From the NCBI GenBank assembly GCA_024401695.1, contig JAKSKN010000001.1:474666-538665 (forward strand): a stretch of 64,000 bases of DNA. Direction: 5' to 3'. Shown here in pieces: positions 12,087 through 64,000 of the stretch. Origin of the DNA: Bacteroidales bacterium. Lineage in GTDB: Bacteria; Bacteroidota; Bacteroidia; Bacteroidales; UBA932. Made by a program: the position numbers and the translations under genes. The notes beneath the pieces were generated by a model, which was not told where the DNA came from, made no database searches, and worked only from the letters and a program-made list of their open reading frames with translations. How positions within the stretch are numbered: position 1 is the stretch's first letter; every line of letters begins with the position of its first letter.

Positions 12087-12259
12087 CCTGGTCTGTCAGA
12101 GAACTGCGCCGCCAGATAGGAACGAACCTGCACATCCGCGTCGGGCTGAATCCGCAGGACGTTGTGACGGAATCCGACCTTGAAGACGCGCTCATCAACC
12201 ACCTGCAGGAGTTCCTCCTCGAATTCGGCCTAGGTTCAAGCACGAAACGCAATCGGTGA
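12087..12259 (+). pseudogene. Remnant of a DUF1016 (YhcG-type) nuclease gene
   Basis: Translation in the frame from about 12087 gives WSVRELRRQI, the usual end of the DUF1016 N-terminal domain, then after a deletion DVVTESDLEDALINHLQEFL and LEFG, the conserved start of the PDDEXK-nuclease half. The nuclease core is gone; the frame then runs into the dispersed repeat at 12234 and stops (TGA, 12257-12259). Upstream the frame is lost. DUF1016 proteins occur with restriction-modification and mobile elements. This is a decayed fragment, not a working gene. Confidence 0.6.
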
Positions 12260-12339
12260 GAAGAATTTGAGCCGGGCGGCTTTGCCGATTGTTTCTGACC
12301 GAAGATACAGTTTTTTTTCAGAAACTGGACTTTTTTCAT
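12234..12339 (+). repeat. Dispersed repeat, 5' unit, copy 1
   Basis: About 106 bases nearly identical to 58507-58611. It holds a stem AATCGG/CCGATT extended by AAAC/GTTT across a two-base bulge, which encloses AGCC-GGGC-GGCT, and a second stem TTTCTGA/TCAGAAA. It ends in CTGGACTTTTTTCAT, followed by a degenerate copy of the head motif (ATACGTTTTG). Confidence 0.8.
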
Positions 12340-12387
12340 TCCATATCCATATACGTTTTGCTCGGTTCTATTTCGTTGTTGGTCAAA

Positions 12388-12418
12388 AATGCGTAGATTT
12401 GTAAATCTATTACGCATT
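12388..12418 (+). promoter_or_regulatory. Promoter box inside a palindrome before the DUF4988 gene
   Basis: The -7 box TAGATTTG (12394-12401) lies within a long hairpin: AATGCGTAGATTT (12388-12400) pairs with AAATCT and TACGCATT (12403-12418) with a two-base bulge. TTG triplets about 15-18 bases upstream could be the -33 element. The ATG is at 12423. Such a palindrome over the box could be an operator or form a 5' hairpin in the transcript. Confidence 0.55.
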
Positions 12419-12422
12419 CATC

Positions 12423-13622
12423 ATGAAACGAATCTCACTCATCATCCTGGCCGTTGCGGCTATACTTGCCGGCAGCGTGTCCTGCCAGAAGGTCAATGAC
12501 CTTGACAAGAGACTTACCGAACTGGAACAGACCGTATCTGACCTTAAGGCTCAGGTCCTGGCCGGGGCCGTCATTACTTCTGTTGACAAGACTGCAGACG
12601 GATGCACTTTCATCCTTTCCAACGGACAGACCTATACCGTCACGAACGGCAAGGACGGCTCTGACGGAGAGGCAATCATAGCCGATGTCGAGATAGAGGA
12701 AAACTTCATAGTACTTACGTTGAAGAACGGTGAAACGCTCCGCATCTCCTATCAGAATCCGCTGTCAATGGTCACTCTGAGCATCGTTCCGGACTATGAT
12801 GACGGGACAGTTGGGAAACCGGAAACAGTAGAGGCAATGGGAATGAAGAGACACATTTTCTACCTCGACATATCAGCGACACCTGCGAAGTACACGGAAA
12901 TTCTGTCAGACACTGAAAGGTTCATCCACAAGGCCGTCTTCTCGCCTGTGCTGACCAAGAGCGGATTCGGCAACGCATTCACAGTCAGCCCGAAGAGTGT
13001 GACATATGCAGAAGGGGCTCCTATCCCTTTCCTGGAAGCATGCTTTGAGCTTGATGACGATACAGCTGCCCTGCTGCAGAACAAAAACACGCCTTATACA
13101 GTCTCATACTCCATCGAGGATAAGGACGGAGTGCACGGAGCTGCAACGGCATTCGTCGCCATCTCGCACGAAAAAGGCTCGGGTCAAGACAATCCCTCAG
13201 ATAAAATCATTCCACCGTATGCTACCAGTTACAGAGATTGGAAAAATTTAGATGCAGAAGCTGTCCGCGCAGCTAGAAGGTTTGATATAGAAAATATTAG
13301 AATCGTTGCAGTGGGTGATGACTCTAAATTCGATCTTGTTACAGAGGATATAGAGGGCTTCGAGTTGAAATCCCTGGCTTTGGACGGTACTTTCAAATTC
13401 GGATATAGAAGCGAGGATGGCTCGTACCATTATGCATACGGGTACGTAATAGAATGCCTCACATTAGATCATTATGACGCAAATGACATCTTTAGTGCTT
13501 CTTCAATGGTGCACGCAACAATTCTTAGAAGTCGTACTAATAGCTACGAGATAAATAACATCAAGGCTACTGTCCGTGCAATAACGTTGATGGCAACTAC
13601 TGACGATACCATAATGGAGTGA
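12423..13622 (+). CDS. DUF4988-type surface lipoprotein
   Basis: A 399-residue exported lipoprotein: signal to residue 20 (ILAGSVSC, Cys21), a heptad-rich coiled coil at about 24-50 (NDLDKRLTELEQTVSDLKAQ), then the DUF4988 pattern with alternating short strands (AVITSVDKTADGCTF, TYTVTNGKDGSDGE, FIVLTLKNGETL). This N-terminal module precedes varied ligand-binding or enzyme domains in Bacteroidota; here what follows is an unrecognised beta-rich region. From about residue 260 (DNA 13200 on) the sequence becomes visibly richer in A and T and in rarer codons than the first two thirds, which suggests a mosaic gene. It lies between a copy of the dispersed repeat and a terminator, as an isolated accessory gene. 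Function unknown. Confidence 0.8.
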   Translation: MKRISLIILAVAAILAGSVSCQKVNDLDKRLTELEQTVSDLKAQVLAGAVITSVDKTADGCTFILSNGQTYTVTNGKDGSDGEAIIADVEIEENFIVLTLKNGETLRISYQNPLSMVTLSIVPDYDDGTVGKPETVEAMGMKRHIFYLDISATPAKYTEILSDTERFIHKAVFSPVLTKSGFGNAFTVSPKSVTYAEGAPIPFLEACFELDDDTAALLQNKNTPYTVSYSIEDKDGVHGAATAFVAISHEKGSGQDNPSDKIIPPYATSYRDWKNLDAEAVRAARRFDIENIRIVAVGDDSKFDLVTEDIEGFELKSLALDGTFKFGYRSEDGSYHYAYGYVIECLTLDHYDANDIFSASSMVHATILRSRTNSYEINNIKATVRAITLMATTDDTIME

Positions 13623-13690
13623 TGTCCATATGTCTATGCACAATACCGTGATGTAGCTCAGCAAGCACAGAAGTTGACCAAATGAAAATC

Positions 13691-13736
13691 CTTGAAAGCC
13701 ATAGTCCAGCGCCCGCGGGGCGCTGGTCGGTTCAAG
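13691..13736 (+). repeat. Nested GC-rich hairpin
   Basis: CTTGAA (13691-13696) pairs with TTCAAG (13731-13736) around a perfect 9-base-pair inner stem, CCAGCGCCC-GCG-GGGCGCTGG (13706-13726). It sits between the lipoprotein gene and its apparent terminator. No T run follows, so it is not an obvious terminator. Confidence 0.6.
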
Positions 13737-13743
13737 AACTGAA

Positions 13744-13776
13744 AAAGCGGTCTCTGCCAACAGCAGGGACCGCTTT
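13744..13776 (+). terminator. Terminator after the DUF4988 gene
   Basis: AAAGCGGTCTCTG (13744-13756) pairs with CAGGGACCGCTTT (13764-13776) with one G-T pair and a 7-base loop, then TCTATTATCTAT. No other gene lies between it and the lipoprotein stop at 13622. Confidence 0.65.
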
Positions 13777-13927
13777 CTATTATCTATAACTTGGTGAATT
13801 TGTCACGCGTATAACCGTCTAACTTGTCACTGAGAACCATTGACTTCTGCAGGCCATCAAACGTACATGCTTAACGCCGTCAAAACAGCTGAAGACGAAA
13901 AGCAAACAGGATCTTTTGCATTCCATA

Positions 13928-14030
13928 CCGATGTACGTTTTGTCCGTGCAGATCAGCAGCGAAAGCTGAATTCAAGTTACGTGGATACGCTCCTCAGGTG
14001 CGTAGAATGGATATTGGCGTAACTTGAGGC
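13928..14030 (+). repeat. Dispersed structured repeat, main unit, copy A
   Basis: This 103-base unit differs at only two positions from 58619-58721. Visible structure: TGTACG/CGTGCA hairpin, CAGC-GAAA-GCTG tetraloop hairpin, a long-range stem CAAGTTACG (13973-13981) with CGTAACTTG (14018-14026) enclosing TACGC/GCGTA. It is preceded by CATTCCATA. It ends 37 bases before the start of the M28 peptidase gene, whose promoter box lies between. No open frame of note is conserved between copies. Confidence 0.85.
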
Positions 14031-14055
14031 TGTTGGCACAGCCGAAATAATAAGT

Positions 14056-14063
14056 TACCTTTG
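14056..14063 (+). promoter_or_regulatory. Promoter -7 box for the M28 peptidase gene
   Basis: TACCTTTG ends only 4 bases before the ATG at 14068, so transcription probably starts at the start codon itself (leaderless mRNA). Confidence 0.65.
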
Positions 14064-14067
14064 TGCT

Positions 14068-15627
14068 ATGAACACTATATATAAGTTTTTTCTCTGTCTG
14101 ACCGTTATGATCTCCGCTTCACTGCAATTGCAAGCGCAAGGCGTTCCGGACACATATTGCGATGATTTCAGAAACTGGGTCAGGACTATCGGCTCGGACG
14201 AATTCGGCGGGCGCAAGCCTATGACCCCATATGAAACGAAGACAATAGACTATATCGCCGGAGAGTTTCGTCTGCTGGGGCTCAAACCTGCATTCGGTGA
14301 AAGTTATTTCCAGACGGTCAAGGAAATTTCCACGACTGTACGTATCCCTGGCAATGAAATAAAAGTCAGGGCAAGCCGGGGATCGGTCAGCCTTTCAATG
14401 CTGGAGGATGTGATGGTCTGGACGACGAGAGCTGTGGACAAAGTAAGGTTCAAGGATGTGGAATTCGTATTCTGCGGCTTCGGTATAGACGCTCCAGAGT
14501 ATGACTGGAATGATTTTGAAGGGACGGATGTCAGAGGAAAGATACTGATTGTAATGGTGAATGACCCTGGATTTTGTGACAAATCCCTTTTCCGTGGCAG
14601 GAATATGACCTATTATGGAAGATGGATATATAAGCTTGAGCAGGCTCAGAGGCTCGGGGCTGCCGGTTGTCTTATCATTCACAACGAGGCGGCTGCCGGA
14701 TATGGCTGGCACGTGTGTGTCAACGGGCATCAGGAAGGCAATCTGTCGCTATTCGACGAGGCGACCGGAAATATGGATGAACTCGGAATACGCGGGTGGC
14801 TGAATGAGAAGGCGTGCAGGAGGTTGTTTGAAGCGTCCGGCCTCGATTACGACAATGCTCTTGCTTCTGCAAAAAAGCCGGGATTCAAGGCCATTCCTTT
14901 GAAGGCGAGGAGTACGTTCTCTATGGAAGTCGAATATGAAATAGGGGAGACTTGCAATGTGGGGGCCGTCCTCCCGGGAACAGACTTGAAAGATGAATGT
15001 GTGGTATTCAGCGCCCATTGGGACCATTTCGGTGCAGGCAAACCGGACGAAAAGGGAGATGCAATCTATAACGGAGCATCCGACAATGGCTCGGGGCTTG
15101 CAGCAATCCTGATGATTGCCAAAAAGATGCAAAGACTTCCCGCACCGCGACGCTCCATACTGTTCCTTGCTCCGACATCGGAGGAGAGCGGACTGTTCGG
15201 TTCCCAATATTATTGCGATCATCCTGTATTTCCTATGGACAAGACCATTACCTGCATCAACTTTGACTGTATCGCTCCCGCTTCACTCACAAGGGATATA
15301 ACAATACTCGGAGGTGGTGAAAGCAGTCTGGACAGCCACATTATGTCGGCCGCTGCCGCACAGGGCCGTTATGTGGTTTTTGACGATGATAATTCCGATG
15401 GCTGGTTTTTCCGTTCTGACCACTGGAACTTCGTCAGGAGAGGAGTGGACGCGGTCGTAATGGAGGCGGGGAATGACTTGGTGAATCCGGATAAACCCAA
15501 TAAATATCCGCAAGCATCCTGGTATCACAAATCGAACGATGAATACCGGGAGGACTGGGATATCGATGGCACGATTGCCAATATAAATCTTATGTTCTCT
15601 GTCGGCTTGAGCCTCGCCAATCTTTGA
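14068..15627 (+). CDS. M28-family zinc aminopeptidase, exported
   Basis: A 519-residue peptidase with a signal peptide (residues 1-23, ending LQAQG) and no lipobox. The two-zinc M28 site is complete: SAHWDHFG (His and Asp), SDNGSGLAA (bridging Asp), PTSEESGLFGS (catalytic Glu and metal Glu), INFDC (Asp) and WYHKSNDEY (last His). A protease-associated-like insert lies upstream of it (about 130-260: VEFVFCGFGIDAPEYDW to AAGCLIIHNEAAAGYG). It probably trims peptides in the periplasm. Gene order places it inside the tRNA-Ser island, between the structured repeat and an amidohydrolase, each with its own promoter. Confidence 0.93.
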   Translation: MNTIYKFFLCLTVMISASLQLQAQGVPDTYCDDFRNWVRTIGSDEFGGRKPMTPYETKTIDYIAGEFRLLGLKPAFGESYFQTVKEISTTVRIPGNEIKVRASRGSVSLSMLEDVMVWTTRAVDKVRFKDVEFVFCGFGIDAPEYDWNDFEGTDVRGKILIVMVNDPGFCDKSLFRGRNMTYYGRWIYKLEQAQRLGAAGCLIIHNEAAAGYGWHVCVNGHQEGNLSLFDEATGNMDELGIRGWLNEKACRRLFEASGLDYDNALASAKKPGFKAIPLKARSTFSMEVEYEIGETCNVGAVLPGTDLKDECVVFSAHWDHFGAGKPDEKGDAIYNGASDNGSGLAAILMIAKKMQRLPAPRRSILFLAPTSEESGLFGSQYYCDHPVFPMDKTITCINFDCIAPASLTRDITILGGGESSLDSHIMSAAAAQGRYVVFDDDNSDGWFFRSDHWNFVRRGVDAVVMEAGNDLVNPDKPNKYPQASWYHKSNDEYREDWDIDGTIANINLMFSVGLSLANL

Positions 15628-15694
15628 TATTCCCTTTCGCCATTGTTGTGTTTATCCGTCCATACATATGAATGAGAAATACGAACGTAATCTA

Positions 15695-15720
15695 AAACAT
15701 TCCATACCGATGTACGTTTT
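15695..15720 (+). repeat. Head-only relic of the dispersed repeat
   Basis: CATTCCATACCGATGTACGT (15697-15716) and the following TTTT match the head of copy A (13918 onward); after that only short scraps such as GCGTAAATT remain recognisable. It lies about 70 bases before the amidohydrolase gene. The rest of 15628-15789 holds nothing else I can name. Confidence 0.6.
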
Positions 15721-15789
15721 CTATGGCTATGTCGTGAAATCTGCGTAAATTCACAGAACTAATCATCTGCGATTTTTATATATAATTGA

Positions 15790-17541
15790 ATGAAAAATAC
15801 AATTCTGATTTATTCCGCAATTATAGTATGCTCATTGCTCAGCAGTTGCACTGTCTATGACAAGCAGAACCCCGATGAGGATGTACGTATCCTCTATGGA
15901 AATGTCATTACCATGAAGGCCGAGGAAGACCGTGCCGAGGCCGTCGTGTGCAAAGATGGGCAGATAATTTTTGTGGGCACAAGAAGTGCGGCGGAGAAAT
16001 ATGTGACGCCTTCTTCAAAGGTGCTTGATTATGGCGACAACTATATCTATCCCGGTTTTATGGATGCCCACGTGCATGGAATGGGCGTGGCCGTCAAAAC
16101 TGGAGGCTGCAGCATGATAGAGGTTGCAATAAAGGAAAATTTCACTCTGGATGATTATGCCAAACGGATGAAAGAATTCATCGATGAAGACTTCGAGAAA
16201 AACAAAAAGTACAGGACTTACTACAAGGGGTCCGCAATGGTTCTTAATCCCGATATGGAGCCGCACAGGTCAATCCTCGACAAATACATACCTGACGTGC
16301 CGGTCATCATCGAGACAATTGACGGCCATTCGGTGTGGGTGAACACCAAGACTATCGAAGTATATAATATCAAGGACTGGACAAAGCGTTTCCCCGATGG
16401 TGACGAGCTCCGAGTCGATGCAGATGGGTATCCGACAGGCTATATATCAGAGAAGCCCGCCCTTGAACTCGGAGGGCTTACGGTGCCGACCAAGGATGAA
16501 ATAAAACCGGGCCTCCTGGAATGGCAGGAATTTGCTTTCTCGAAAGGGCTCACGGCGGTCTCCGAGGCGTTGGTTTCTGCCGGTACGGTGGATCCTGACT
16601 GCTACATCGAGTTGGCGGAGAAGGGATTGTGGAAACTTCGCACCTATGCCTCTTATATCATCGATGAAAATACACCGGATGATAAAACCAGCATAGATGA
16701 TAAATTTACGGAAATTCTCAATTATAAGAAGGAAGACAGCGAATATTTCAAGATAATTGGTGTCAAATTGTTTATGGACGGTGTTATTGAAGCCCATACG
16801 GGCTGGCTCAAGGAAGAATACGCTGACTTGGAAGGTTATTACGGACTGAAGCGCATTACGAACAAAGACCGTATGAAATACATTGTCAGAACAGCAAACA
16901 GCAACGGTATGAACGTTCACTGTCATTCTATCGGCGACGGAGCTACGTCATTTGCGTTGGATTGCCTCAGCGACGGACAAAAGGAGGCAGGTGTCACCGA
17001 TGCCCGCAACACCTTGGCCCACCTTCACATCGTCGATCCGGGGGATATTCAAAGATTTGCAGACAATAATATCATTGCTGTCGTAGCCCCCTTGTGGGTT
17101 CCTAAGGAAGTGGGTGTCTTTGAGCAGACGTGCAATTATATCGGTAAAGACAGGGCAGAGAAGCAATACCCCATCAATTCATTCCTGAAAGCCGGTGCCC
17201 ATATTTCTTTCCATTCAGACTACCCGGTATCCTTGAATTTCAGCATACCTTTAACATTCTATGCAGCCGTAACACGTACTTTCCCGGAGTTGGGCGAGGC
17301 AGGTGTCTGCGGAAAGGAAGAAGCAATTTCCAGATATGAGGCTTTGCAGGCGCTTACGACAGGCTGCGCATACTCTTTCAAGGAGGAAAAGCGGCTGGGA
17401 AGCATCGAGGTAGGCAAGATTGCCAATTTTACCGTTCTGAATCAAGACCTCATGCATGAACAAATCAGCGAAATTCCGAAAGTTCAGGTCGTTGCTACAA
17501 TCATCGACGAGGATGTGGTGTGGCCGAAGAAAGCAAAATAG
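15790..17541 (+). CDS. Amidohydrolase (YtcJ-like) lipoprotein
   Basis: A 583-residue amidohydrolase of the YtcJ-like (Amidohydro_3) group with a lipoprotein signal (CSLLSSC, Cys about 20). The small beta domain begins at VRILYGNVITMKA. Metal-binding residues: DAHVHG near residue 93, VHCHSIGDGA near 377, AHLHIVDP near 412, and the Asp of FHSDYPVS near 476. The protein ends in the usual LGSIEVGKIANFTVL. It should hydrolyse a C-N bond in an unknown amide or formyl substrate outside the cytoplasm. The island location and lipoprotein signal suggest nutrient scavenging. It follows the M28 peptidase by 160 bases with its own upstream region. Confidence 0.9.
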   Translation: MKNTILIYSAIIVCSLLSSCTVYDKQNPDEDVRILYGNVITMKAEEDRAEAVVCKDGQIIFVGTRSAAEKYVTPSSKVLDYGDNYIYPGFMDAHVHGMGVAVKTGGCSMIEVAIKENFTLDDYAKRMKEFIDEDFEKNKKYRTYYKGSAMVLNPDMEPHRSILDKYIPDVPVIIETIDGHSVWVNTKTIEVYNIKDWTKRFPDGDELRVDADGYPTGYISEKPALELGGLTVPTKDEIKPGLLEWQEFAFSKGLTAVSEALVSAGTVDPDCYIELAEKGLWKLRTYASYIIDENTPDDKTSIDDKFTEILNYKKEDSEYFKIIGVKLFMDGVIEAHTGWLKEEYADLEGYYGLKRITNKDRMKYIVRTANSNGMNVHCHSIGDGATSFALDCLSDGQKEAGVTDARNTLAHLHIVDPGDIQRFADNNIIAVVAPLWVPKEVGVFEQTCNYIGKDRAEKQYPINSFLKAGAHISFHSDYPVSLNFSIPLTFYAAVTRTFPELGEAGVCGKEEAISRYEALQALTTGCAYSFKEEKRLGSIEVGKIANFTVLNQDLMHEQISEIPKVQVVATIIDEDVVWPKKAK

Positions 17542-17609
17542 CATTGATGCGGATAAACCAGGGAACCTATGCTTTATCATTCAAATATCTATGCTGGTTT
17601 CGTCAATAG

Positions 17610-17689
17610 GCGATTATTGTAAAAAAGTCTTGAAAAGCGGTAAAATTGACGGAATACCACCGATTTTGAGTATCTTTGAAGATAATCGC
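17610..17689 (+). promoter_or_regulatory. Promoter region flanked by an inverted repeat
   Basis: The -7 box TATCTTTG (17671-17678) with TTGAC about 20 bases upstream (17646-17650) lies inside the arms GCGATTAT (17610-17617) and ATAATCGC (17682-17689). It precedes the glycosidase-like gene by 30 bases. The flanking arms could be an operator or form a hairpin; which is unknown. Confidence 0.5.
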
Positions 17690-17707
17690 TTGTAATCAAA
17701 GAATAAA

Positions 17708-19189
17708 ATGAAAAGAACCGTTTCAATCATTTCCTCCACAATAATCGGACTAGCCGTTACCATAATTGCGGCCGGACTGACTTCATGTAGTAAGATAGAT
17801 GACCCTGACACTCCGGATCCTTCTTCCGGCCCGAACATAGGAACATATCTCTGGGGAGAGGAACTCTACCCTATGGGTGCCGACGGTGCTAAAACCCTGG
17901 CAGAGATGTATTCCAAGACCAATATCAAAACCTTGTATCTGCTCGTTAAAGGAACAAACGGCCGCGTGGGATTTCTGGCAAATCCCGCCGGAGAGTATGA
18001 ACCTGCCAGAACGGACAGAGATCTTCTTCAAGAAGTTACAACGGCCATGCACGACAAGAATATCAAAGTCTATGCTTGGATATACGCTAGTGAGGATTCT
18101 TGTTATGCAAAGAAGTTCCCGGCAGAAGCGTGCCATCACTTCCGTTCCGGGCCGCATAACAAGCATATTGACCTGAACAGCACAGCTTTCAGCGATTATC
18201 TTGCAAGAATGATCAATGTAATCAGAGAGAATTATAAAGTGGACGGCATTATGTTCGACCATCTCCGCTATAATGGTTTGTACTTTGGTTGGAGCGATAA
18301 GGATTTCAAATCAATGACTACAGATCCGGAGATAGGTATGACCCTTGACGAATACAACGAAGCAGTTCGTCTTATGGCTGCCACATACAACTATCCCATT
18401 GCCAAGAACTCGGACGGACGATATGTCTATAATGCCGAAAATCCGGAGATACATGAAAATATTCCCAACGCAATTTTTGATGCTGCGGAAAAGCGGAATG
18501 CGGCTGTGTTAAAATTGATGAAATACCGGGAATTGACAGTTGACAGGATTTCGACCGCTCTGCTCTCTGCCTGCAAAGGCATACCGACAATGTATGCATC
18601 AATGCCTGAAGTCGTTACAGCTCCGCCAGCTGCCACTCTTTCGTATGGAACCACCATCAATGACACGTATTTGTTCACCTATGTCTCCCCGATGCTCTAT
18701 TCGGCGGATTATGGAGAAGATGCTGAATGGGTGAAGAAAGGGTGCAATTTCCTGCTCAGTCACAAATATGATTGTGTCCCTTCTCTCCAGGCTTACAGAC
18801 CCGGCACTACAGAATCTCTAACTGTGGATGTTGCTGCCGCAAAGTCCACCGGATGCAAGAATTACAATCTTTTCAGGTCGCTTACCTATGATATCGCACG
18901 CGTTGCTGTTCCGAAGGCGAACAATATCAACCTTACATATTTCAAGGGGACGAATTCCCCTGTCGGCACTGTCAAGATAAAGTTTTCCGATGCGTCAAAA
19001 ATTCAGAACATTACCCTCGGCGGTGCATTCTCGGGTGTACAATACACTTTGAACGGCAACGTACTTACAATATCAGGGGATAACTTCCATTCGATAGGAG
19101 AAGAGGGCGTCATTACCTTCGAGTTGTCTGACAAGATAAGCGTTACCGGTGTTGAATCCGACCGTATCGTTTGGATGGATATCGATTGA
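17708..19189 (+). CDS. Glycoside-hydrolase-like lipoprotein (family-10-like TIM barrel)
   Basis: A 493-residue lipoprotein (signal ending GLTSC, Cys about 27). The central region resembles the GHL10/DUF187-type TIM barrel: IGTYLWGEELYPMG, IKVYAWIYASEDS and KVDGIMFDHLRYN, the last matching the barrel strand that usually carries an acidic residue (D of MFDHLRY). The last 90 residues form a beta-sandwich-like tail (FKGTNSPVGTVKIKFSDAS). It may act on polysaccharide or peptidoglycan outside the cell, but the active-site residues are not certain. It sits alone behind its own promoter in the island, downstream of the amidohydrolase. Confidence 0.7.
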   Translation: MKRTVSIISSTIIGLAVTIIAAGLTSCSKIDDPDTPDPSSGPNIGTYLWGEELYPMGADGAKTLAEMYSKTNIKTLYLLVKGTNGRVGFLANPAGEYEPARTDRDLLQEVTTAMHDKNIKVYAWIYASEDSCYAKKFPAEACHHFRSGPHNKHIDLNSTAFSDYLARMINVIRENYKVDGIMFDHLRYNGLYFGWSDKDFKSMTTDPEIGMTLDEYNEAVRLMAATYNYPIAKNSDGRYVYNAENPEIHENIPNAIFDAAEKRNAAVLKLMKYRELTVDRISTALLSACKGIPTMYASMPEVVTAPPAATLSYGTTINDTYLFTYVSPMLYSADYGEDAEWVKKGCNFLLSHKYDCVPSLQAYRPGTTESLTVDVAAAKSTGCKNYNLFRSLTYDIARVAVPKANNINLTYFKGTNSPVGTVKIKFSDASKIQNITLGGAFSGVQYTLNGNVLTISGDNFHSIGEEGVITFELSDKISVTGVESDRIVWMDID

Positions 19190-19248
19190 TGAGGCTGGCT
19201 CCAGAGCAAAAAATTCGACAAAGGATATAAAACTTCAAAAAAGTTGAA

Positions 19249-20301: not shown

Positions 20302-20401
20302 TTTCGCTATAGAGTTATTTGCCGAATTTAATTTGACAGTGCAACAGCACTATCGGGTGTAAAGTTATACATTTTTTTGGGTCACCTGGACAAAAAGTAG
20401 G

Positions 20402-20704
20402 ATGACGGGCATGTTCATCTATCCCGACGATTATAACTCGGAAGAAGTGGGAGAGCAGCAGTTTACCTGGCAGGAAATCAATGATGCCGGTATTGTCTTC
20501 CTTCCATCCATCGGATATCGCGAAAAATACAATGTGTATAGATTGAATAATCCATTAGGCGGGTACTGGTCATCGACAACCGTCGAGAGTGACGTCAATG
20601 CAGCGCGCTGTGTAATATTTAACGGTGATGGTGAAATGAACATTACTGACGAGAAACGCAGCATAGCCCATTGTATACGCCTTGTCTGCGATTGTAATAA
20701 TTAA
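20402..20704 (+). pseudogene. C-terminal fragment of a FISUMP/DUF1566-type surface protein
   Basis: The 100 residues match the end of Bacteroidota surface domains that read FLP..GYR, then YWSST, then a final VRLV: here INDAGIVFLPSIGYR, GGYWSSTTVESDVNAARC and CIRLVCDC. The N-terminal part that such proteins need (signal and repeats) is missing; an in-frame TAA lies about 14 codons before the first ATG. No promoter box is clear. It is most likely a remnant left by deletion at the edge of the island. Confidence 0.65.
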
Positions 20705-20980: not shown

Positions 20981-20986
20981 CATTAA

Positions 20987-20994: not shown

Positions 20995-21016
20995 ATGAAT
21001 ATTTCGACTATTAGCG

Positions 21017-55648: not shown

Positions 55649-55693
55649 AAATTGATATATCTTAATTGTTTATTGATTCTCTCTATAGTTCAG

Positions 55694-55701
55694 CAAAGTT
55701 A
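55694..55701 (-). promoter_or_regulatory. Promoter -7 box for efp
   Basis: TAACTTTG on the minus strand, 45 bases before the efp ATG. Confidence 0.6.
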
Positions 55702-55715
55702 ACTGAATTCCATTA

Positions 55716-57250: not shown

Positions 57251-57270
57251 ATAGGTCTTAGTTTCGCAAA

Positions 57271-57278
57271 CAAAGATA
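57271..57278 (-). promoter_or_regulatory. Promoter -7 box for cmk
   Basis: TATCTTTG on the minus strand, 20 bases before the cmk ATG. On the other strand a weak GATATTTG lies shortly before the response-regulator start. Confidence 0.6.
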
Positions 57279-57324
57279 ATAAAAATACCTATTTGTCACG
57301 AATTTTGCAGATATTTGCATTGAT

Positions 57325-58470
57325 ATGAAAGTCCTTATTGTTGATGATGAGCGGGCTATCCGCAATTCCCTCGGTGAGATCCTCTCCGACGAAGGTTACG
57401 AAGTTGAATCCGCAGAAGACGGGGCATCCGCTCTGGCTCTTGTTGCAAAGGGAAAATACGATGTGATTTTCTGCGACATCAAGATGCCGGGGATGGACGG
57501 GATAGAAGTGCTTGACAAGCTCGTCGCCGATGGCTGCGATGCCGCGATAGTGATGATTTCCGGCCACGGCGACATCGACACCGCCGTAGAGAGCATCAAG
57601 AAAGGCGCCTTTGACTTCATCCAGAAGCCTCTCGACCTCAACCGCATCCTCATAACCATCAAGAATGCCACCGAGAAAGTATCGCTGGTCAACGAGACCA
57701 GGATACTGAAGAAGAAAGTCTTCGGCGGAAGCGATATGATCGGCGAATCCGAGCCTATGAAGCACATCCGCGCCATCATTGACAAGGTCGCACCAACCGA
57801 TGCCCGGGTGCTGATAGAAGGTCCGAACGGCTCCGGCAAGGAGCTTGTCGCCCGCAGCCTGCACCGGCAGAGCGACCGCAGTGCGATGCCTTTCGTCGAG
57901 GTCAACTGTGCCGCCATTCCGGGCGAGCTCATAGAAAGCGAGCTTTTCGGCCACGAAAAGGGTTCCTTCACATCTGCCATAAAGCAGCACAAGGGCAAAT
58001 TCGAGCAGGCCGACGGAGGCACCCTCTTCCTTGATGAAATCGGTGATATGAGCCTTGCAGCCCAGGCGAAGGTGCTGCGCGTCCTCCAGGAGCACAAGCT
58101 TTCACGCATCGGCTCCGACAAGGACATCGATGTCAACGTGCGCGTCGTGGCCGCCACCAACAAGAACCTTGCAGAAGAAATAAAGGCAGGCAACTTCCGC
58201 GAAGACCTGTATCACCGTCTCAGCGTCATAGTGATCAAAGTTCCGTCCCTCGACGAGCGCAGGGACGACATCCCGATGCTTATCGAGCATTTCAAGGACA
58301 AATACACTGAAGGAGGCAAGCCGCGTTCCTTCTCCGCCGAAGCGGTCAAGCTCCTTCAGGAAAAGCACTGGCCGGGAAACATCCGCGAACTCGACAATGT
58401 GGTGGACCGCCTGCTCATCCTCGGCGATCCCGAGATCTCAGCACAGAACGTACGGGACTATGTCCTTTAG
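57325..58470 (+). CDS. NtrC-like response regulator without DNA-binding domain
   Basis: A 381-residue response regulator: receiver domain 1-120 (ILIVDDERAIRN-like start, phospho-Asp in IFCDIKMPGMDG), then a sigma-54-type AAA+ domain (about 140-370) with Walker A GPNGSGKE, GHEKGSFTSAIKQHKGKF in place of the sigma-54-contact motif GAFTGA, Walker B GGTLFLDEIGD, and the Arg finger region. It ends at ISAQNVRDYVL with no Fis-type helix-turn-helix. From memory this short form and the altered loop are usual in Bacteroidota. It may regulate without specific DNA binding or with a partner protein. The NtrY-like kinase 3 kb away is the likely sensor. The dispersed repeat starts 37 bases after the stop. 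Confidence 0.9.
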   Translation: MKVLIVDDERAIRNSLGEILSDEGYEVESAEDGASALALVAKGKYDVIFCDIKMPGMDGIEVLDKLVADGCDAAIVMISGHGDIDTAVESIKKGAFDFIQKPLDLNRILITIKNATEKVSLVNETRILKKKVFGGSDMIGESEPMKHIRAIIDKVAPTDARVLIEGPNGSGKELVARSLHRQSDRSAMPFVEVNCAAIPGELIESELFGHEKGSFTSAIKQHKGKFEQADGGTLFLDEIGDMSLAAQAKVLRVLQEHKLSRIGSDKDIDVNVRVVAATNKNLAEEIKAGNFREDLYHRLSVIVIKVPSLDERRDDIPMLIEHFKDKYTEGGKPRSFSAEAVKLLQEKHWPGNIRELDNVVDRLLILGDPEISAQNVRDYVL

Positions 58471-58506
58471 GTTGACGTTCTGGAATTATTGAAAATAGTG
58501 TCCTGA

Positions 58507-58611
58507 GTTCAAGCACGAAACGCAATCGGTGAGAAGAATTTGAGCCGGGCGGCTTTGCCGATTGTTTCTGACACGAAGATACAGTTTTTTCAGAAACTGG
58601 ACTTTTTTCAT
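58507..58611 (+). repeat. Dispersed repeat, 5' unit, copy 2
   Basis: Nearly identical to 12234-12339, differing by small indels near GTTTCTGA and in a T run. Same two hairpins. Here it leads directly into the main unit (58619-58721); at 12234 it is followed only by a degenerate head. Confidence 0.8.
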
Positions 58612-58618
58612 CCAAATA

Positions 58619-58721
58619 CCGATGTACGTTTTATCCGTGCAGATCAGCAGCGAAAGCTGAATTCAAGTTACGTGGATACGCTCCTCAGGTGCGTAGAATG
58701 GATATTGGCGTAAATTGAGGC
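58619..58721 (+). repeat. Dispersed structured repeat, main unit, copy B
   Basis: Two differences from copy A in 103 bases. Hairpins: TGTACG/CGTGCA (58623-58641), CAGC-GAAA-GCTG (58648-58659), TACGC/GCGTA (58677-58695). CGTAAATTGAGGC at 58709-58721 can pair either with CAAGTTACG at 58664-58672 (one mismatch) or with GCCTCAAGTTACG at 58732-58744. Past that, 58745-58884 contains no recognised gene; AAAAAGTCCAG at 58840-58850 is an inverted copy of a stretch at 58597-58607. Confidence 0.85.
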
Positions 58722-58884
58722 TTTATTTTCGGCCTCAAGTTACGCGGAAAGCGTCTGGAAGTGCCTGGAAGCAGGGTTCCCGTTACTTGATTTTTATTTA
58801 CCGACTTCTCAGCGGCAAAAACAATAAGTTTTGATACATAAAAAGTCCAGAACCGTATGGAACCGGGCTTCATTGATCTCGATA

Positions 58885-58901
58885 AAATGGAGAATCCATT
58901 T
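58885..58901 (-). terminator. Possible terminator of the 58.9-63.5 kb operon
   Basis: A perfect stem AAATGGA/TCCATTT (loop of 3) right after the last stop of the minus-strand run, followed by TTTATC. Short stem, so only moderately supported. Confidence 0.45.
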
Positions 58902-58903
58902 CG

Positions 58904-59083
58904 TTATTTCTTGCCTAATGTGTAAGCCTGCACATAATAGACCGCTATCATAGCAACCATCAGGACAATAACCAAGCCTTTGAACTCAAACCCAAGCTCC
59001 GCCAGGCAGCCTGTCAAAGCAGCAAGAACCAAAAACAGCATGAATGTTGACGCGCGCAAGTACTTGACGTCGTAATTATCCAT
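58904..59083 (-). CDS. 59-residue membrane protein, unknown
   Basis: The minus strand encodes MDNYDVKYLRASTFMLFLVL and continues with a second hydrophobic stretch (LVIVLMVAMIAVYYV) to a C-terminal TLGKK. Two spans with a short loop containing Glu and Lys. It lies 27 bases after the CPBP protease gene in the same direction, and a hairpin follows its stop. Length and composition would suit an immunity or small regulatory protein; there is no direct evidence of function. Confidence 0.55.
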   Translation of the reverse strand: MDNYDVKYLRASTFMLFLVLAALTGCLAELGFEFKGLVIVLMVAMIAVYYVQAYTLGKK

Positions 59084-59110
59084 CTACAAAGAGATCATAA
59101 TTATGTGGAA

Positions 59111-59944
59111 TTACAAGGTGTCCATATCAATATCGCAGGGCAACTTCTGTTCATTTTCAAATAATGAGTGTTCTACCCTGTGGGGCAACCCCATTCGTTT
59201 CAGTTCCGCTGCTGCCAGATACACGCATGCAGCACACAGTATTATAGATAATAACAATACCAACCAATATACTGCCGGTGACTGGAACAAATCGTAAAAT
59301 GATTCGGCATCATTGTTTGTCGGGATGAAATTGGCAAGACAGGCAATCATGTTGTTCGTCATATGCACCACTATTCCAGGGAGCAAGCTGCCTGTCCTAT
59401 GACAAAGCCATCCGGTAAACACTCCCATGGCAAATGCACCAAGCATCTGATCAGGATTCATGTGGAACAGAGAAAACAGTAGAGCCGAAATCATGACAGC
59501 GAGCCATGGGCGTGATTCAGTCCAGCGCTCCCGGAGCAGTGAGCGCAAAATTACACCCCTGAACAAGACTTCTTCTGCCAAGGGGGCCATAATGCCTGCT
59601 GCAAGGATCCCAGCCAGCGGCACGCTCATAAAATCAAAATCATCGCATATTTCATCAAAGCTCAAGACAGATATCAGTTCGCGTTCCGGCATTATGAAGA
59701 AAAGTGTCGCAAAAAAACAAATCAGCAGAAGCGGCCAAGGCTTACTATTGAGGAAGCCTGTACGGATGTCCGTCTTCCCCTTAGCGAGGACGTACCAGAC
59801 GAACAGTGCATTGCCCATCAGAAGTCCAAGGATGATATACAATGACTTGCCAAAACCGTCAATCAAGAACAACGGAGCAAGTAAGGCCATCGAAAAGAAT
59901 TCGAGGCCGAAGAAGAACAGAATGTACTTGAATGAGCGAAGCAT
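59111..59944 (-). CDS. CPBP-family intramembrane protease
   Basis: A 277-residue membrane protein of the CPBP (Abi/Rce1-like) family. The catalytic signature is APLAEEVLFRGVILRSL in the middle, followed by FSLFHMNPDQ and GIVVHMTNNM with the conserved His and Asn. About eight spans. Bacterial members include bacteriocin-immunity and maturation proteins; the target here is unknown. It is 2 bases from the preceding unknown gene. The neighbours form an ABC transporter module. Confidence 0.9.
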   Translation of the reverse strand: MLRSFKYILFFFGLEFFSMALLAPLFLIDGFGKSLYIILGLLMGNALFVWYVLAKGKTDIRTGFLNSKPWPLLLICFFATLFFIMPERELISVLSFDEICDDFDFMSVPLAGILAAGIMAPLAEEVLFRGVILRSLLRERWTESRPWLAVMISALLFSLFHMNPDQMLGAFAMGVFTGWLCHRTGSLLPGIVVHMTNNMIACLANFIPTNNDAESFYDLFQSPAVYWLVLLLSIILCAACVYLAAAELKRMGLPHRVEHSLFENEQKLPCDIDMDTL

Positions 59945-59946
59945 GG

Positions 59947-60846
59947 CTATGCGTTAGTAATCTTCAATATCGTCACCCGTTTGAGATGGCAGCTTATCTC
60001 GGAAGAATTCTCCTCGCAGAAGAAATACAGGTCAATGTAGTCAAACAGATCCTCGGCGGCGGAGTCCATGAGGGACGTGTAGTCATCGGCAGAGAATGTC
60101 AAGGAGAAGTATCCTGATCCCCAGGTATCCACTCTAAGCTTCCTGTATTCCGTATCATAGACACGCAGACTGCCGATGAGCGGCTTGAATTCAAGATGTA
60201 TCCTGTCACCGGGCCTGAGCTTCTTCACGGTATCAAGAATCGCTTTCTTCGTCATCGTGCCGTCCCTGCGGTAGTCGGGATCGGTGTCAGCTTCAGGTTC
60301 AGGTTCCTCAATGCTCCCCTGCCCCGCAATCTCATCGACATACTTGCAGGCATCTTCCACACTCATGCCCGTCTCCGACACCAGATATCCTATGGCTTGA
60401 CTTCGCCCGGTGTTCTCCAGTCTTGAATAGAACTCTGCCAGTTCTTCGCTTCTTAGAACGTCAGCGGATTCTTCAACATGTTCCGCCTGATTGCCATGCG
60501 GGGCTTGTCCCTCCTCGCTGAGGCATCCCTGAACCGCGTCACCGGAGATGTCGCCAAGCTGCGCAATGAACGCCACGGCATCCTCGCGGCTGGCATTTAT
60601 CTTGACTGCAGATGCACTCTTGAATGCCACAACGACGCCGTCTTCCTCCTGGCTGAAAGAAGAAATACTTTCAAGCTCGTGCACATTGGCCTTCAGCAGG
60701 TCTCGCCCGATGAAAACCTGTCCGGACTGACTGTCAACGGCAAACAGTACACCGTCGGCCGTCTTGAAGAACTCACCGAAAGTGAAGCCTGTCTGCCTCT
60801 GGAACATGGCCAGCTCGGTCTCGTTGAAGATGGATGTGATATTCAT
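59947..60846 (-). CDS. Protein of unknown function, 299 residues
   Basis: I do not recognise a family. It has no signal or membrane segment, so it is probably cytosolic. The first 90 residues look like a compact alpha/beta domain (FGEFFKTADGVLFAVDSQSG). A helical part follows with a conserved-looking LENTGRSQAIGYLVSETGM, then an acidic linker (EEPEPEADTDPDYRRD) and a C-terminal beta-rich domain (KLRPGDRIHLEFKPLIGSLR). It lies 12 bases after the ABC ATPase and 2 bases before the CPBP protease, in the same operon. Confidence 0.7.
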   Translation of the reverse strand: MNITSIFNETELAMFQRQTGFTFGEFFKTADGVLFAVDSQSGQVFIGRDLLKANVHELESISSFSQEEDGVVVAFKSASAVKINASREDAVAFIAQLGDISGDAVQGCLSEEGQAPHGNQAEHVEESADVLRSEELAEFYSRLENTGRSQAIGYLVSETGMSVEDACKYVDEIAGQGSIEEPEPEADTDPDYRRDGTMTKKAILDTVKKLRPGDRIHLEFKPLIGSLRVYDTEYRKLRVDTWGSGYFSLTFSADDYTSLMDSAAEDLFDYIDLYFFCEENSSEISCHLKRVTILKITNA

Positions 60847-60858
60847 AAAGTATGCGGG

Positions 60859-61569
60859 TTATTTGACTGCATCGAGGAAGTAATCTTCCAGCTCCTGATC
60901 TGTGCTGCCGGGGACGTGGGGCTTGTCCATCAGCACACGACCCTTGTCAAGAAGGAGAATGCGGTCGCATATATCGTTTATTGAATTCAGGTTATGGCTG
61001 GAGACCACAACGGTGGTGCCCAGGTCTCGCTTCATCTTCCTGATGAGTTTGGCCACGACAATCTGCGAGCTTGGATCAAGATAGTTGAACGGCTCGTCCA
61101 AAATCAGCAATTGCGGATTGACAAGCATAGCAGCGATGATTCCTATCTTCTGCCTGTTGCCGTTGGAGAAATCGTGAATCAGTTTGCCGGTCCCGAGGAT
61201 TTCCCCGTTCATAAGAGTCTCATACTCCTGCAGCCGCAGTTTGAGGTCCTGCTCGGAGATATCATAAGCCTCCGCCACAAAGCCGAAGAACTCCTCTGGA
61301 GTATAGATGTCGATAAGGAAAGTCGAATCCAGATAGGACCCTGTCACTGACTTCCACGAAGGATCCTCTGCAACGTTCATGGTGTCTACAGTAACACTTC
61401 CTGAAGTTGCCTTTATCAGATCCAACATCAGACGCATCATCGTAGTCTTGCCGGCACCATTGTTACCCACAAGTCCAACCAGTTCCCCACTGCCGATGGC
61501 CAGGGTAGGAACGTCCAGCACAACATTTGAATTGTACTGTTTCTTGAGATTGTTGAGCTCTATTTTCAT
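60859..61569 (-). CDS. ABC transporter ATP-binding protein
   Basis: A 236-residue ABC ATPase. Walker A GNNGAGKTT near 37-45, Q-loop, the signature region in degenerate form FSNGNRQKIGI, Walker B LLILDEPFNYLDPSS, and the switch His in VSSHNLN. It powers the permease encoded just upstream, which it overlaps by 4 bases. Export or immunity is more likely than import because no binding-protein gene is present. Confidence 0.94.
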   Translation of the reverse strand: MKIELNNLKKQYNSNVVLDVPTLAIGSGELVGLVGNNGAGKTTMMRLMLDLIKATSGSVTVDTMNVAEDPSWKSVTGSYLDSTFLIDIYTPEEFFGFVAEAYDISEQDLKLRLQEYETLMNGEILGTGKLIHDFSNGNRQKIGIIAAMLVNPQLLILDEPFNYLDPSSQIVVAKLIRKMKRDLGTTVVVSSHNLNSINDICDRILLLDKGRVLMDKPHVPGSTDQELEDYFLDAVK

Positions 61570-62783
61570 TTTGAAGTGTATTTTTCCATATACTTATATC
61601 TGTTCCTCATGAAACGCCTTACAACCCACCTGAAGAACGGCTTGTATGCAATGACGCCACCCAGCCCCAATGCCGAGAGAATGACCTGCGACTTCCAGCC
61701 AGGCAACAGGTGCAGGCATGCAAGTCCAACACCCATTATGGCGAATGTCACGATGATTGTGGCTCCTTTGTATGTCGAAGAACTGCCTTGATTATTGAAG
61801 AAGGCCTTGCCGAACATATCGAACGGAACACAGTTGTAGGCGTCCATCAGCATGAGCAGGTTGCAGAAGCAGCTGCAGTACAGAACGGAAGCGATAATAT
61901 CGAATGGAGACAGCGATTCACTCCATATGCACAGAGGGAGGCACAGCAGACCTCCGACAGAACCGCAAAGCAGACCGAAGCGGTACTTGTTGGCGAGTAA
62001 TCTCTCAATTGCTATGGGACGGGTCCATATACCACCGAAGAAGTTTGCCTCCACGGCAAATCCCCACTGCGGCATGGAGCAGGAGAGAAAGCATATGAAC
62101 AAAAAGACAGAGACTATCCCGAATATCGGTCTGGTGTCATCAAGAGAATAGATAATTGAATATACGTAAAAGAATACCGAGAAATATATCATTGTGGTCT
62201 TCAGCCTCTTGGAACGCAGGAAGCTCCTGAACTGTATACCCGAGATATAATTGCCTCTTGCCGACTTCACAGATTTGGAGAGATAGCTTTTCACAGCCTT
62301 TTCCGGCTGGTAGTTGCCGCGGTGCTTCACCGCCATCACGATGTAGCCACCGAGAACAGAAGCCAGGTAGAGGGCAACAAAAAGTATCAGACCACCGATT
62401 GGAGGTATGAACAGGAAGCATGCCGGGAGCAGCGCCAAAGGCATCACAAGATTCGATTCGTTCCAGAACTGTGACAGAGCGAGGAAATCCGCCCATCGGC
62501 TCTGAGACAGAGGACGAGTCTTCAGGAAGGCGTCCATCACCGTGTTGTCACGCTCAAGGACGAACTTCAATATCAAGTCGGGGATTGTAAAGCCTATAGC
62601 GACAAGAGCAACGGCAATAGGTGGGACAGTCGTTCCGTCCTCCCTCAGCAGGAAGAACACCACAAACTCTATGATCCAGAAATATACTACGCCGAATATA
62701 TCTCCATAAAGCCTTCCTTTGGACTTGTTCCTGGAAAGCTGCCGAAACTGCAATTTCGCAAGGGTTTTCAGTTTGAGCGCCAT
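61566..62783 (-). CDS. ABC transporter permease (DUF5687-like)
   Basis: A 405-residue membrane protein with about ten hydrophobic spans, resembling the DUF5687 family of ABC-2-like permeases in Bacteroidota (MALKLKTLAKLQFRQLSRNK, FGGIWTRPIAIERLLANKYR, FGKAFFNNQGSSSTYKGATI). Its partner ATPase follows with a 4-base overlap. The ATG at 62783 gives the N-terminus typical of the family; an earlier start would overlap the HTH gene. The HTH gene ends 5 bases upstream. Confidence 0.85.
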   Translation of the reverse strand: MALKLKTLAKLQFRQLSRNKSKGRLYGDIFGVVYFWIIEFVVFFLLREDGTTVPPIAVALVAIGFTIPDLILKFVLERDNTVMDAFLKTRPLSQSRWADFLALSQFWNESNLVMPLALLPACFLFIPPIGGLILFVALYLASVLGGYIVMAVKHRGNYQPEKAVKSYLSKSVKSARGNYISGIQFRSFLRSKRLKTTMIYFSVFFYVYSIIYSLDDTRPIFGIVSVFLFICFLSCSMPQWGFAVEANFFGGIWTRPIAIERLLANKYRFGLLCGSVGGLLCLPLCIWSESLSPFDIIASVLYCSCFCNLLMLMDAYNCVPFDMFGKAFFNNQGSSSTYKGATIIVTFAIMGVGLACLHLLPGWKSQVILSALGLGGVIAYKPFFRWVVRRFMRNRYKYMEKYTSK

Positions 62784-62788
62784 ATATA

Positions 62789-63007
62789 CTATTCTGATTC
62801 TTGATCTCCCGGTCGGTACTCCAGGATGTCTCCTGGCGTGCAGTCCAGTATGCGGCATATCGAATCGAGCGTGCTGATCCGTAGGGCACGGACCTTTCCG
62901 GTCTTCAGGATCGACATGTTGGACAAGGTGATGCCAACCTGATCGGAGAGCTCGCTCAATGTCATCTTGCGCTTGGCAAGCATTACGTCGAGATTGATGA
63001 CTATCAT
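62789..63007 (-). CDS. Small HTH regulator (Cro/CI-like)
   Basis: A 72-residue DNA-binding protein of the YozG-like HTH group: MLAKRKMTLSELSDQVGITL and LSNMSILKTGKVRALRISTL cover the recognition helix, and CTPGDILEYRPGD the end. In many bacteria such small regulators are paired with a DUF2975 membrane protein, as here (4-base gap). It may sense membrane state through that partner and control the operon. Confidence 0.93.
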   Translation of the reverse strand: MIVINLDVMLAKRKMTLSELSDQVGITLSNMSILKTGKVRALRISTLDSICRILDCTPGDILEYRPGDQESE

Positions 63008-63011
63008 AGCT

Positions 63012-63518
63012 CTATACCATGAATTCCTGGTCCTCCTTGATGTTGCGGGCCAGTTCGAATATGTATGACACGATTATGAAGCCCACGCCGCAGCAGACAG
63101 AGGAGCACATGGGGCCAATAAGATAGATGTTCATGCAGATGGACAGTATCCAGCCACACACATAGATCACGACCATTGCTATGCCGACATGGCGGATTCG
63201 CCATTCCAGCAATTCGGAAAACACTTCACCTTTCTTGACTGAAGCCATTATCCCAATGAAGTTGATCCACAGGCGGAAGAACGCAATTACAATAGGTACA
63301 ACCATGAACGCGCCAAAACCTTGTGCGAATGTGAGGGGCAATGAGCCGTCTGCAGCAGCGCGACCAGCTTCATACCCTGAGCGATACGCATCAGATCCGG
63401 CAGGGTCTGAGTTGTTCATGAACCAGATTACTTTTGATAGTATGTCGGCAGTGATGCCAAGCACCGTCACAGCAATCAGCACTATGCTGAAGAGGTTGAT
63501 TTTCTTTGCAGTGGTCAT
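63012..63518 (-). CDS. DUF2975 membrane protein
   Basis: A 168-residue membrane protein with four hydrophobic segments, matching DUF2975 (NLFSIVLIAVTVLGITADIL, and the tail GFIIVSYIFELARNIKEDQEF). In known cases DUF2975 sits next to a YozG-like regulator, and this holds here. The ATG at 63518 follows a promoter box by 32 bases. It is the first gene of the module. Confidence 0.87.
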   Translation of the reverse strand: MTTAKKINLFSIVLIAVTVLGITADILSKVIWFMNNSDPAGSDAYRSGYEAGRAAADGSLPLTFAQGFGAFMVVPIVIAFFRLWINFIGIMASVKKGEVFSELLEWRIRHVGIAMVVIYVCGWILSICMNIYLIGPMCSSVCCGVGFIIVSYIFELARNIKEDQEFMV

Positions 63519-63550
63519 AATTTCTAATGAATAATTTGGATGTGTCACTG

Positions 63551-63558
63551 CAAATATA
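63551..63558 (-). promoter_or_regulatory. Promoter -7 box for the DUF2975 operon
   Basis: TATATTTG on the minus strand, 32 bases before the ATG at 63518. Confidence 0.65.
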
Positions 63559-63701
63559 AACACAAATTGCTGAATCGCAAGAATAATTTATTAAATTTTA
63601 ATAAACATTAACTAAAAATCAGCAACATAATACAACATGGGTATTACTGGAACATCTTGGCAACAACGAAATTCCGTATTATGCAAAACACGCATTTGGC
63701 C

Positions 63702-63724
63702 TACTTTTGTATTTTACAAAATAC
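63702..63724 (+). promoter_or_regulatory. Plus-strand promoter box with adjoining palindrome
   Basis: TACTTTTG (63702-63709) overlaps GTATTTT-AC-AAAATAC (63709-63724). No gene of note follows on the plus strand before the window end, only the dispersed repeat from 63939. 63559-63938 otherwise holds nothing I can name. Confidence 0.4.
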
Positions 63725-63938
63725 AGAGACAGCGCCATTGGCAAAAGACAACTCAGTTAAGCCCAAAGGGAAACTGGAAACTCGGAGAGTTCGAGGTTTG
63801 TTTTCAATAAAGATTCTTTCTTTCAGTTGCTAGAAACTTACATGTGTAGGCGGCTTAAGTATATCTGTCTTGAGATGGTAAGGGCAGACAAAACGTAGTT
63901 CATTTCGCCGCCAAAAGAGCTGAAGACATAATTCATAA

Positions 63939-64000
63939 CATCCAAATACCGATGTACGTTTTATCCGTGCAGATCAGCAGCGAAAGCTGAATTCAAGTTA
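63939..64000 (+). repeat. Dispersed structured repeat, copy C, cut by the window end
   Basis: All 62 bases match 58609-58670 exactly, including the TGTACG/CGTGCA and CAGC-GAAA-GCTG hairpins. It is a direct repeat of copy B, 5330 bases away, with the DUF2975-to-CPBP operon in between. Confidence 0.85.

Follow-up and report, generated by a model that had tools for sequence, protein, structure and literature searches.

Integrons and clusters of attC sites lacking an integrase (CALINs) carry their genes singly and largely in the same orientation, with a species-typical repeat behind each; the gene and its 3' site are exchanged as a unit, gene order varies between relatives, and the cargo of integrons includes toxin-antitoxin and defence genes. 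The same traits, including this type of cargo, are seen at a dispersed intergenic repeat of a Bacteroidales bacterium (UBA932; GenBank assembly GCA_024401695.1), studied here from a window of 64,000 nucleotides (nt), the final 64 kb of contig C1 in an assembly of 2.65 Mb and 71 contigs. The repeats may be junction sites, together with small passengers, in a gene-cassette system of Bacteroidales that resembles integrons or dif modules; we judge the chances of this reading to be about even. A further relative is found in the plasmid dif (pdif) modules of Acinetobacter, in which XerC/XerD move genes lying between sites of ~28 bp (excerpts of PMC13141974, PMC12907356 and PMC6449649). As in the modules described in these excerpts, discrete genes including toxin-antitoxin pairs lie between the sites, and the genome has candidate XerC- and XerD-like enzymes, each below the cut-off of its family model; in contrast to these modules, the sites here are chromosomal, belong to Bacteroidales, reach ~100 nt and are mostly in direct orientation. 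The portions of the open-access literature that were consulted contained no description of such a cassette system.

A ~23-nt junction, CATTCCATACCGATGTACGTTTT, termed HEAD, makes up the right-hand portion of a larger site between genes and stands directly before a gene-less passenger, body1. Comparison of loci gives the order left module (..AAACnnAGTTCGTTTACGCCGTCTAACCAATCCTGT), dyad, RACGTAYGCTTTTGCATTCC and ATACCGATGTACGTTTT, HEAD being composed of the end of the RACGTAYGCTTTTGCATTCC part and the ATACCGATGTACGTTTT part. The dyad spans 22 bp (TTCATCCGYN-CA-KRCGGATGAA), and its exact pattern was matched 28 times, with 16 of the 400 genomes of the genus having at least one match, compared with 0 of 400 for the backward control. 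CA is exactly central in 25 of the 28 matches, from 13 genomes; 24 of these fit YNCAKR and one, in genome G293, reads CACAAA, and the three matches that lack the central CA are those of G003, G189 and G349. The invariant CA in our alignment of 22 dyads is not independent evidence, as these were lined up on CA by hand; a guessed dyad at window 17540-17561 was left out of it. A profile built from 19 sites gave 32 matches at E ≤ 0.002 in 330.7 kb of the genome's own DNA (the window plus stretches mostly picked for sites or recombinases) and 32 at the same threshold in stretches of other genomes that bear sites (102.6 kb in all); even with the threshold relaxed to E ≤ 1, none was obtained in a further 296.9 kb of the genus, in stretches that were not picked for sites, some of them from dyad-bearing genomes. 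Across GTDB genomes the exact HEAD pattern has six matches, two of which are site-like and come from Bacteroidales, namely Candidatus Cryptobacteroides fimicaballi and Candidatus Alistipes equi, which makes Cryptobacteroides the presumed genus; three were inspected (L110, L111, L113), and those in Pantoea, Hyphomonadaceae and Pseudobacteriovorax were taken as chance by name only. On these comparisons of sequence, the sites form a clade-restricted family of putative junction sites. In genome G316 (L187-L190) the dyads stand within other repeated modules, for example with CCTAGG before and GGGGCGTTAAC after, which suggests a second style of site there.

The placement of the sites was counted at 31 of the 32 profile matches in own DNA (L125 excluded), some of which share one upstream gene. 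The upstream gene is co-directional at 25 of the 31 after correction by eye (27 by crude gene calls), compared with 72 of 162 intergenic controls, and 11 sites begin no more than 60 nt past its stop codon. Both corrected sites, L023:16682 and L128:5041, adjoin an opposite-strand gene: the crude calls had missed ParD (L023:16392-16634) and had set aside a gene overlapping L128:5041. Between 42 and 50 kb of C1, a Bro-N gene, a GNAT gene, an MqsA-like antitoxin and an AAA ATPase each adjoin a site, and other neighbours include HigB, HigBA, ParDE, Phd/YefM, Fic, a DUF2442 gene, an acyltransferase and a CAT-family acetyltransferase. PADLOC scored seven of 19 site-adjoining proteins above 100 bits, a fraction that is not an unbiased rate, the 19 having been hand-picked, partly by appearance. 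The seven are Bro-N as PDC-S13 (twice), the AAA ATPase as PDC-S27 (twice), SoFic, and HigB as PD-Lambda-2_A (twice); an antitoxin matched PD-Lambda-2_B at 59.3 bits, a helix-turn-helix (HTH) antitoxin had weak matches only, and ten of the 19, including all three window passengers, had no match. Ten other genes of the window gave none at 100 bits and two matches, the better at 59.2 bits.

Genes are shared and reordered between species. A single 5.5-kb contig of species G035 matches, in four stretches, four separated places of the present genome (Table 1), and the Bro gene and its 3' site are common to both genomes as far as CATKCC. A. equi carries the 3' end of the HTH antitoxin together with HEAD (84% across 133 nt), followed by a different gene. 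In C. fimicaballi, HEAD is joined to the lipoprotein remnant of own C14 (73%, 130 nt) and to the YefM antitoxin of own C44, and the same toxin leader stands behind variants of HEAD in the present genome and in G293. An outer-membrane-like gene (a PF13505 match below that model's cut-off) is 98.8% identical across 562 nt between the present genome and G236, UvrB being only 86% identical. As we read these comparisons, HEAD contains or adjoins six junctions, and one more falls where the dyad ends. Among 13 inter-genome blocks (at least 120 nt and at least 80% identity), 12 of the 51 ends are no more than 10 nt away from a site; random placement gives a mean of 0.97, and none of 5000 random sets had as many. 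These comparisons do not show the window passengers to be recent arrivals. The preliminary description, drawn from the letters of the window, had missed that the repeats delimit genes, several of which recur in other species in another order.

Exchange of this kind could also come about by homologous recombination, RecA swapping genes between ordinary repeats of accessory islands after DNA uptake, with no dedicated enzyme. Gene-flanking repeats of up to ~300 nt would serve such a process, and in six of 36 scanned sources a tRNA gene, a usual position of islands, is found no further than about 520 nt from a site. Between species, however, mostly a divergent site of ~75 nt is shared, a length that is short for RecA, yet several junctions fall in HEAD; the CA-centred dyad would also be left unexplained. 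We consider this account distinctly unlikely.

Contig ends are concentrated near the sites as well. The test used 24 of the 28 dyad matches (G003, G189 and G349, which have no central CA, and G183 were excluded), of which 20 lie within 800 nt of a contig end (3.67 expected) and 11 within 200 nt (0.92 expected). Contigs C1 and C12 end inside body1, and C4 and C54 begin inside it, with its tail. An assembly breaks off where one sequence has more than one possible neighbour, whether through repetition or through differences between strains; both causes are compatible with movable passengers, and neither is proof of them.

The sites, their placement, the passengers, the shared blocks that end at sites and the contig breaks near them are read directly from the DNA. 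In the cassette system that we propose, the site would lie behind the 3' end of a gene, in many cases no more than 60 nt past the stop codon, and HEAD would be the joint between the 3' end of one cassette and the 5' end of the next passenger. The passengers would be single genes or pairs (toxin-antitoxin, Fic, Bro-N, AAA ATPase, lipoprotein, outer-membrane-like protein) or the gene-less body1, U5 and body2, and site-specific recombination at HEAD and/or the dyad would transfer them among loci and species, and apparently genera. We infer that a recombinase cuts at the sites, and likewise the crossover; our guess for the enzyme is one of the host's seven tyrosine recombinases, whether XerC/XerD-like or not.

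These seven comprise one XerC-like protein (236.7 bits vs a cut-off of 335), one XerD-like protein (273 of 328 aa given; 307.2 bits vs 330, and above the general tyrosine-recombinase cut-off NF001399) and five others. A suggestive link, and the closest between recombinase and site, is found on C71, where two dyads flank a CAT-family acetyltransferase gene (PF00302; L117, C71:80000-94149, at 2948-4418) and a tyrosine recombinase of 321 aa (C71:86 kb; L117 5592-6557) lies 1.2 kb beyond them. An integron proper was rejected: no protein of this genome passes the integron-integrase model TIGR02249 (best 77.6 bits per stretch and 133.1 for a whole protein, vs a cut-off of 265, from ordinary tyrosine recombinases), and no pair of attC boxes (RYYYAAC...GTTRRRY) was found in any of 22 dyad-anchored sites. 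In further distinction from integrons, many small groups are scattered here in place of one array, and a gene-less passenger is found at 12 places; the system is not classifiable as an integron. A Xer/dif site was set aside only provisionally, as HEAD, divisible 11-6-11, is not dif-like and differs from the dif sequences of E. coli, B. subtilis and F. alni given in the excerpts of PMC3025954. Three dif-like strings occur in the fetched DNA, none at a site, and the chromosomal dif of the genome was not located.

Microvirus proviruses occupy dif-like sites of Bacteroidales as integrase-less DNA thought to use the host XerC/XerD (excerpts of PMC3091885). The order and the absence of an integrase in the putatively moved DNA are the same here; the proviruses described there are phage genomes at dif-like sites, whereas putative gene cassettes at HEAD are seen in this genome. 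Invertible promoters of Bacteroides are switched by the serine invertase Mpi at short intergenic inverted repeats (excerpts of PMC12632263). Short inverted repeats in intergenic DNA are common to both systems so far as those excerpts go; in contrast to the switches, the serine-recombinase matches of the present genome number just two, both partial (covering 61 and 30 of 145 positions) and neither intact, and all 10 aligned copies of body1 have one orientation. HEAD may resemble the Mpi repeat. Serine recombinases, considered on account of the central CA, were rejected on these partial matches and on the lack of a link to the dyad (7 of 13 genomes with the dyad have matches, and so do 10 of 14 others).

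Several observations weigh against a dedicated cassette system. None of the genome's recombinases was tied to the sites. Parts are missing from many site copies, half sites are common, and the exact dyad of this genome lies 32.5 kb from a contig end. Homologues of Bro-N with 48-79% identity occur without the site at 27 of 30 loci, the site being carried only by the group of at least 92% identity (3 of 30), and Bro-N as a general site carrier was discarded. The 98.8% block shared with G236 stops at a site, namely at its HEAD, on one side only, 5' of an opposite-strand gene; 39 of the 51 block ends are away from any site; and the blocks, three of 13 containing the Bro gene, are not independent and come from loci chosen for having sites. 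After uvrB, Fic and the sites are missing in 17 of 17 relatives (0.6-1.5 kb seen), with differing downstream genes, so that no clean empty site was found there among these relatives and the locus was dropped as an example of one.

Bacteroidales may nevertheless have a way of capturing cassettes that is independent of integrons, the CA-centred dyad and HEAD acting as recombination site and single toxin-antitoxin, candidate anti-phage and surface genes being swapped between gut species or genera; this wider claim is put forward tentatively. If true, a major gut bacterial order would own a cassette system that swaps phage-defence and toxin-antitoxin genes and goes unnoticed in searches by IntI and attC. 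Such a system could account in part for why single-gene defence is spread so patchily, and for the breaks of metagenome-assembled genomes at these loci, and the dyad with HEAD would offer a simple sequence handle for new single-gene defence candidates.

Within the window, self-comparison agreed with the copies given in the preliminary description. The near-identical main units (13925-14031 and 58616-58722) share 98% identity across 107 nt and the 5' units, here U5 (12229-12299 and 58502-58572), 97% across 71 nt; a third main unit (63939-64000) is 100% identical across 62 nt up to the window end; as contig C1 stops at position 64000, this copy is truncated by the assembly. HEAD starts at 12337 (degenerate), 13919, 15698, 58609 and 63939, which recovers the head-only copies placed at 12339 and 15697. 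The genome-wide search that had been proposed, with window 58502-58760 as query, gave 20 matches (E from 9e-133 to 4e-3), far more than chance would give and extending the family beyond the window, and a fuller element gave 33 at E ≤ 1; the repeat is dispersed and non-coding, as described before. Its 103-nt unit is the start of body1 and not the whole element: body1 measures ~245 nt, and full copies continue for ~150 nt to a tail ...GCCGCAAACGTATATAC. The claim that all copies lie on one strand holds for the window, where all are on the plus strand, and fails for the genome, with minus-strand copies at C1:286 kb, C44:4905, C44:6348 and C71:16577. The start of body1 is present at 12 places, at two of which a contig end truncates it, and U5 has five copies of about 100 nt or more. 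As full copies of body1 are almost identical, with nearly the same internal deletion in three and a different one in a fourth, the recent spread suggested earlier is probable.

Such copies, dispersed on both strands, also suit miniature inverted-repeat transposable elements (MITEs), in which case body1, U5 and the site would be short non-autonomous transposons with inverted ends, moved by a transposase in trans, and the genes mere bystanders. Body1 is indeed bounded by inverted ATRTACGTTT / AAACGTAYAT, of only ~10 bp. This explanation is unlikely, although it deserves more weight than that from RecA: HEAD precedes body1 in nine of the 10 aligned copies (the tenth, L016, retains only GTTTT), HEAD also stands before a gene leader without body1 in an arrangement conserved in another species, and the sites are mostly 3' of co-directional genes. 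The flanks of body1 are the site modules themselves and no target duplication is readable; no autonomous partner was seen, though the search for one was not widened. A single Y1 transposase is present in the genome; it forms an IS200/605-like pair with a TnpB-like open reading frame (ORF) of 380 aa (recognized by eye, no family search), and its hairpin ends differ from the sites. Repetitive extragenic palindromic (REP) sequences, dispersed intergenic dyads with their REP-associated tyrosine transposases (RAYTs), resemble the sites in being dispersed intergenic dyads; the same Y1 element, with its unrelated ends, led to rejection of a REP/RAYT or IS200/605 origin. Phage or plasmid origin was also set aside: body1 has no match in plasmids or phages, neither the dyad nor the body1 core matches viral contigs, and two HEAD matches in viral contigs have, by eye, flanks unlike the site. 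IS110 elements target palindromic intergenic sites, and at the start of C54 (L126, 1-1700) a transposase of the IS110 family adjoins a body1 tail that breaks off at CAAACGTATAT; this is a single event, and a bridge-RNA/IS110 link was not retained. Near this element, at L126 1660-1925, a fold-back of ~260 nt has arms like ACTTTACGGTTCTTCGTCAAATTCGTTG (by eye).

The repeats had been read as an RNA-like element kept by pairing, and as such could be regulatory, a 3'-untranslated or leader structure (processing, attenuation, operator) that travels with genes; their frequent position just downstream of a stop codon and ahead of the following gene, and the 22-bp dyad, would accord with this. The 103-nt unit nevertheless folds like its shuffles (z -1.28; 25 of 200 as good), and the 303-nt element only slightly better than them (z -2.18; 3 of 100). 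In the 22 dyads (20 distinct) 80% of cells pair, compared with 28-44% when slid, yet 248 of 500 letter shuffles pair as well, so that the proposed covariation check gave no sign of compensatory change and a covarying RNA was rejected for the dyad; the near-identical body1 copies hold too few changes for such a test. In the comparison with Rfam that had also been proposed, only tRNA matched, two further matches in one scan being sub-threshold, in line with the earlier statement that no named RNA family is involved. Site-adjoining genes are functionally mixed, and the ends of homology blocks and contigs at sites would go unexplained, which leaves a regulatory or RNA role quite improbable. The dyad, to judge from its sequence, fits a two-fold protein-binding site no less well than a base-paired RNA. 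The existence of the repeats across the genome is confirmed, but an RNA family is not their best reading; the preliminary interpretation is partly supported.

Table 1. Sites, passengers and genes of the window, with related features elsewhere (window positions unless another source is named)
Feature	Position	Strand	Basis or remark
U5, gene-less passenger (5' unit of the preliminary description), leads into degenerate HEAD	12229..12336	+	97% to 58502-58572
Degenerate HEAD junction CATTCCATATCCATATACGTTTT	12337..12359	+	Site-profile match 12319-12365, E 2.3e-4
Single gene between sites, lipoprotein-like, DUF4988 (PF16378)	12423..13622	+	
Site: left module CAAACGTAC...ACGCCGTC + ...AGGATCTTTTG + HEAD (13919-13941), without dyad	13858..13941	+	Profile match 13903-13954, E 1.8e-9
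body1, truncated copy (main unit of the preliminary description)	13942..14031	+	Sequence identity, copy alignment
Single gene between sites, peptidase family M28	14068..15627	+	
Site, imperfect dyad (15651-15672) + HEAD (15698-15720), ~25 nt past M28 stop codon	15651..15720	+	Profile E 3e-14
body2, short leader without coding content; likewise follows HEAD at C12:111 kb	15721..15779	+	Comparison with L128
Single gene between sites, amidohydrolase (PF07969)	15790..17541	+	
Degenerate site, 6 nt past amidohydrolase stop codon, dyad unrecognizable	17547..17605	+	Profile E 2.9e-7
U5 passenger, second copy	58502..58608	+	97% to first copy
HEAD junction CATCCAAATACCGATGTACGTTTT	58609..58632	+	Site profile
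body1, longer copy, breaks off at CTTCTCAGCGGC	58633..58817	+	Copy alignment
Site: left module + HEAD (63939-63962)	63887..63962	+	Profile match 63928-63975, E 9.3e-5
body1, start only, up to contig end	63963..64000	+	
tRNA genes near sites	window 11721-11806; L024 6942-7026; L180 2067-2140; L113 1030-1103; L181 833-906; L191 411-493		
Matches of the G035 contig	gene fragment, C14; Bro-N with 3' site, C44; HTH antitoxin, C12:255 kb; lipoprotein, C12:111 kb		

The tRNA neighbourhoods listed in Table 1 look like landing spots, the tRNA gene at window 11721-11806 itself lying within about 520 nt of a site. Two features of other stretches have no apparent connection with the sites: a 227-nt direct repeat of 99% identity in L022 (1982-2208 and 9470-9696), and two large tandem lipoprotein-like ORFs with the same first 60 residues in L124 (7774-12177). 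A short module like GTTTGTGGGCACCTTACTGT recurs beside sites of the present genome and, as a variant, in G126 (L016, L023 at about 14320, L124 at about 7550, and L197).

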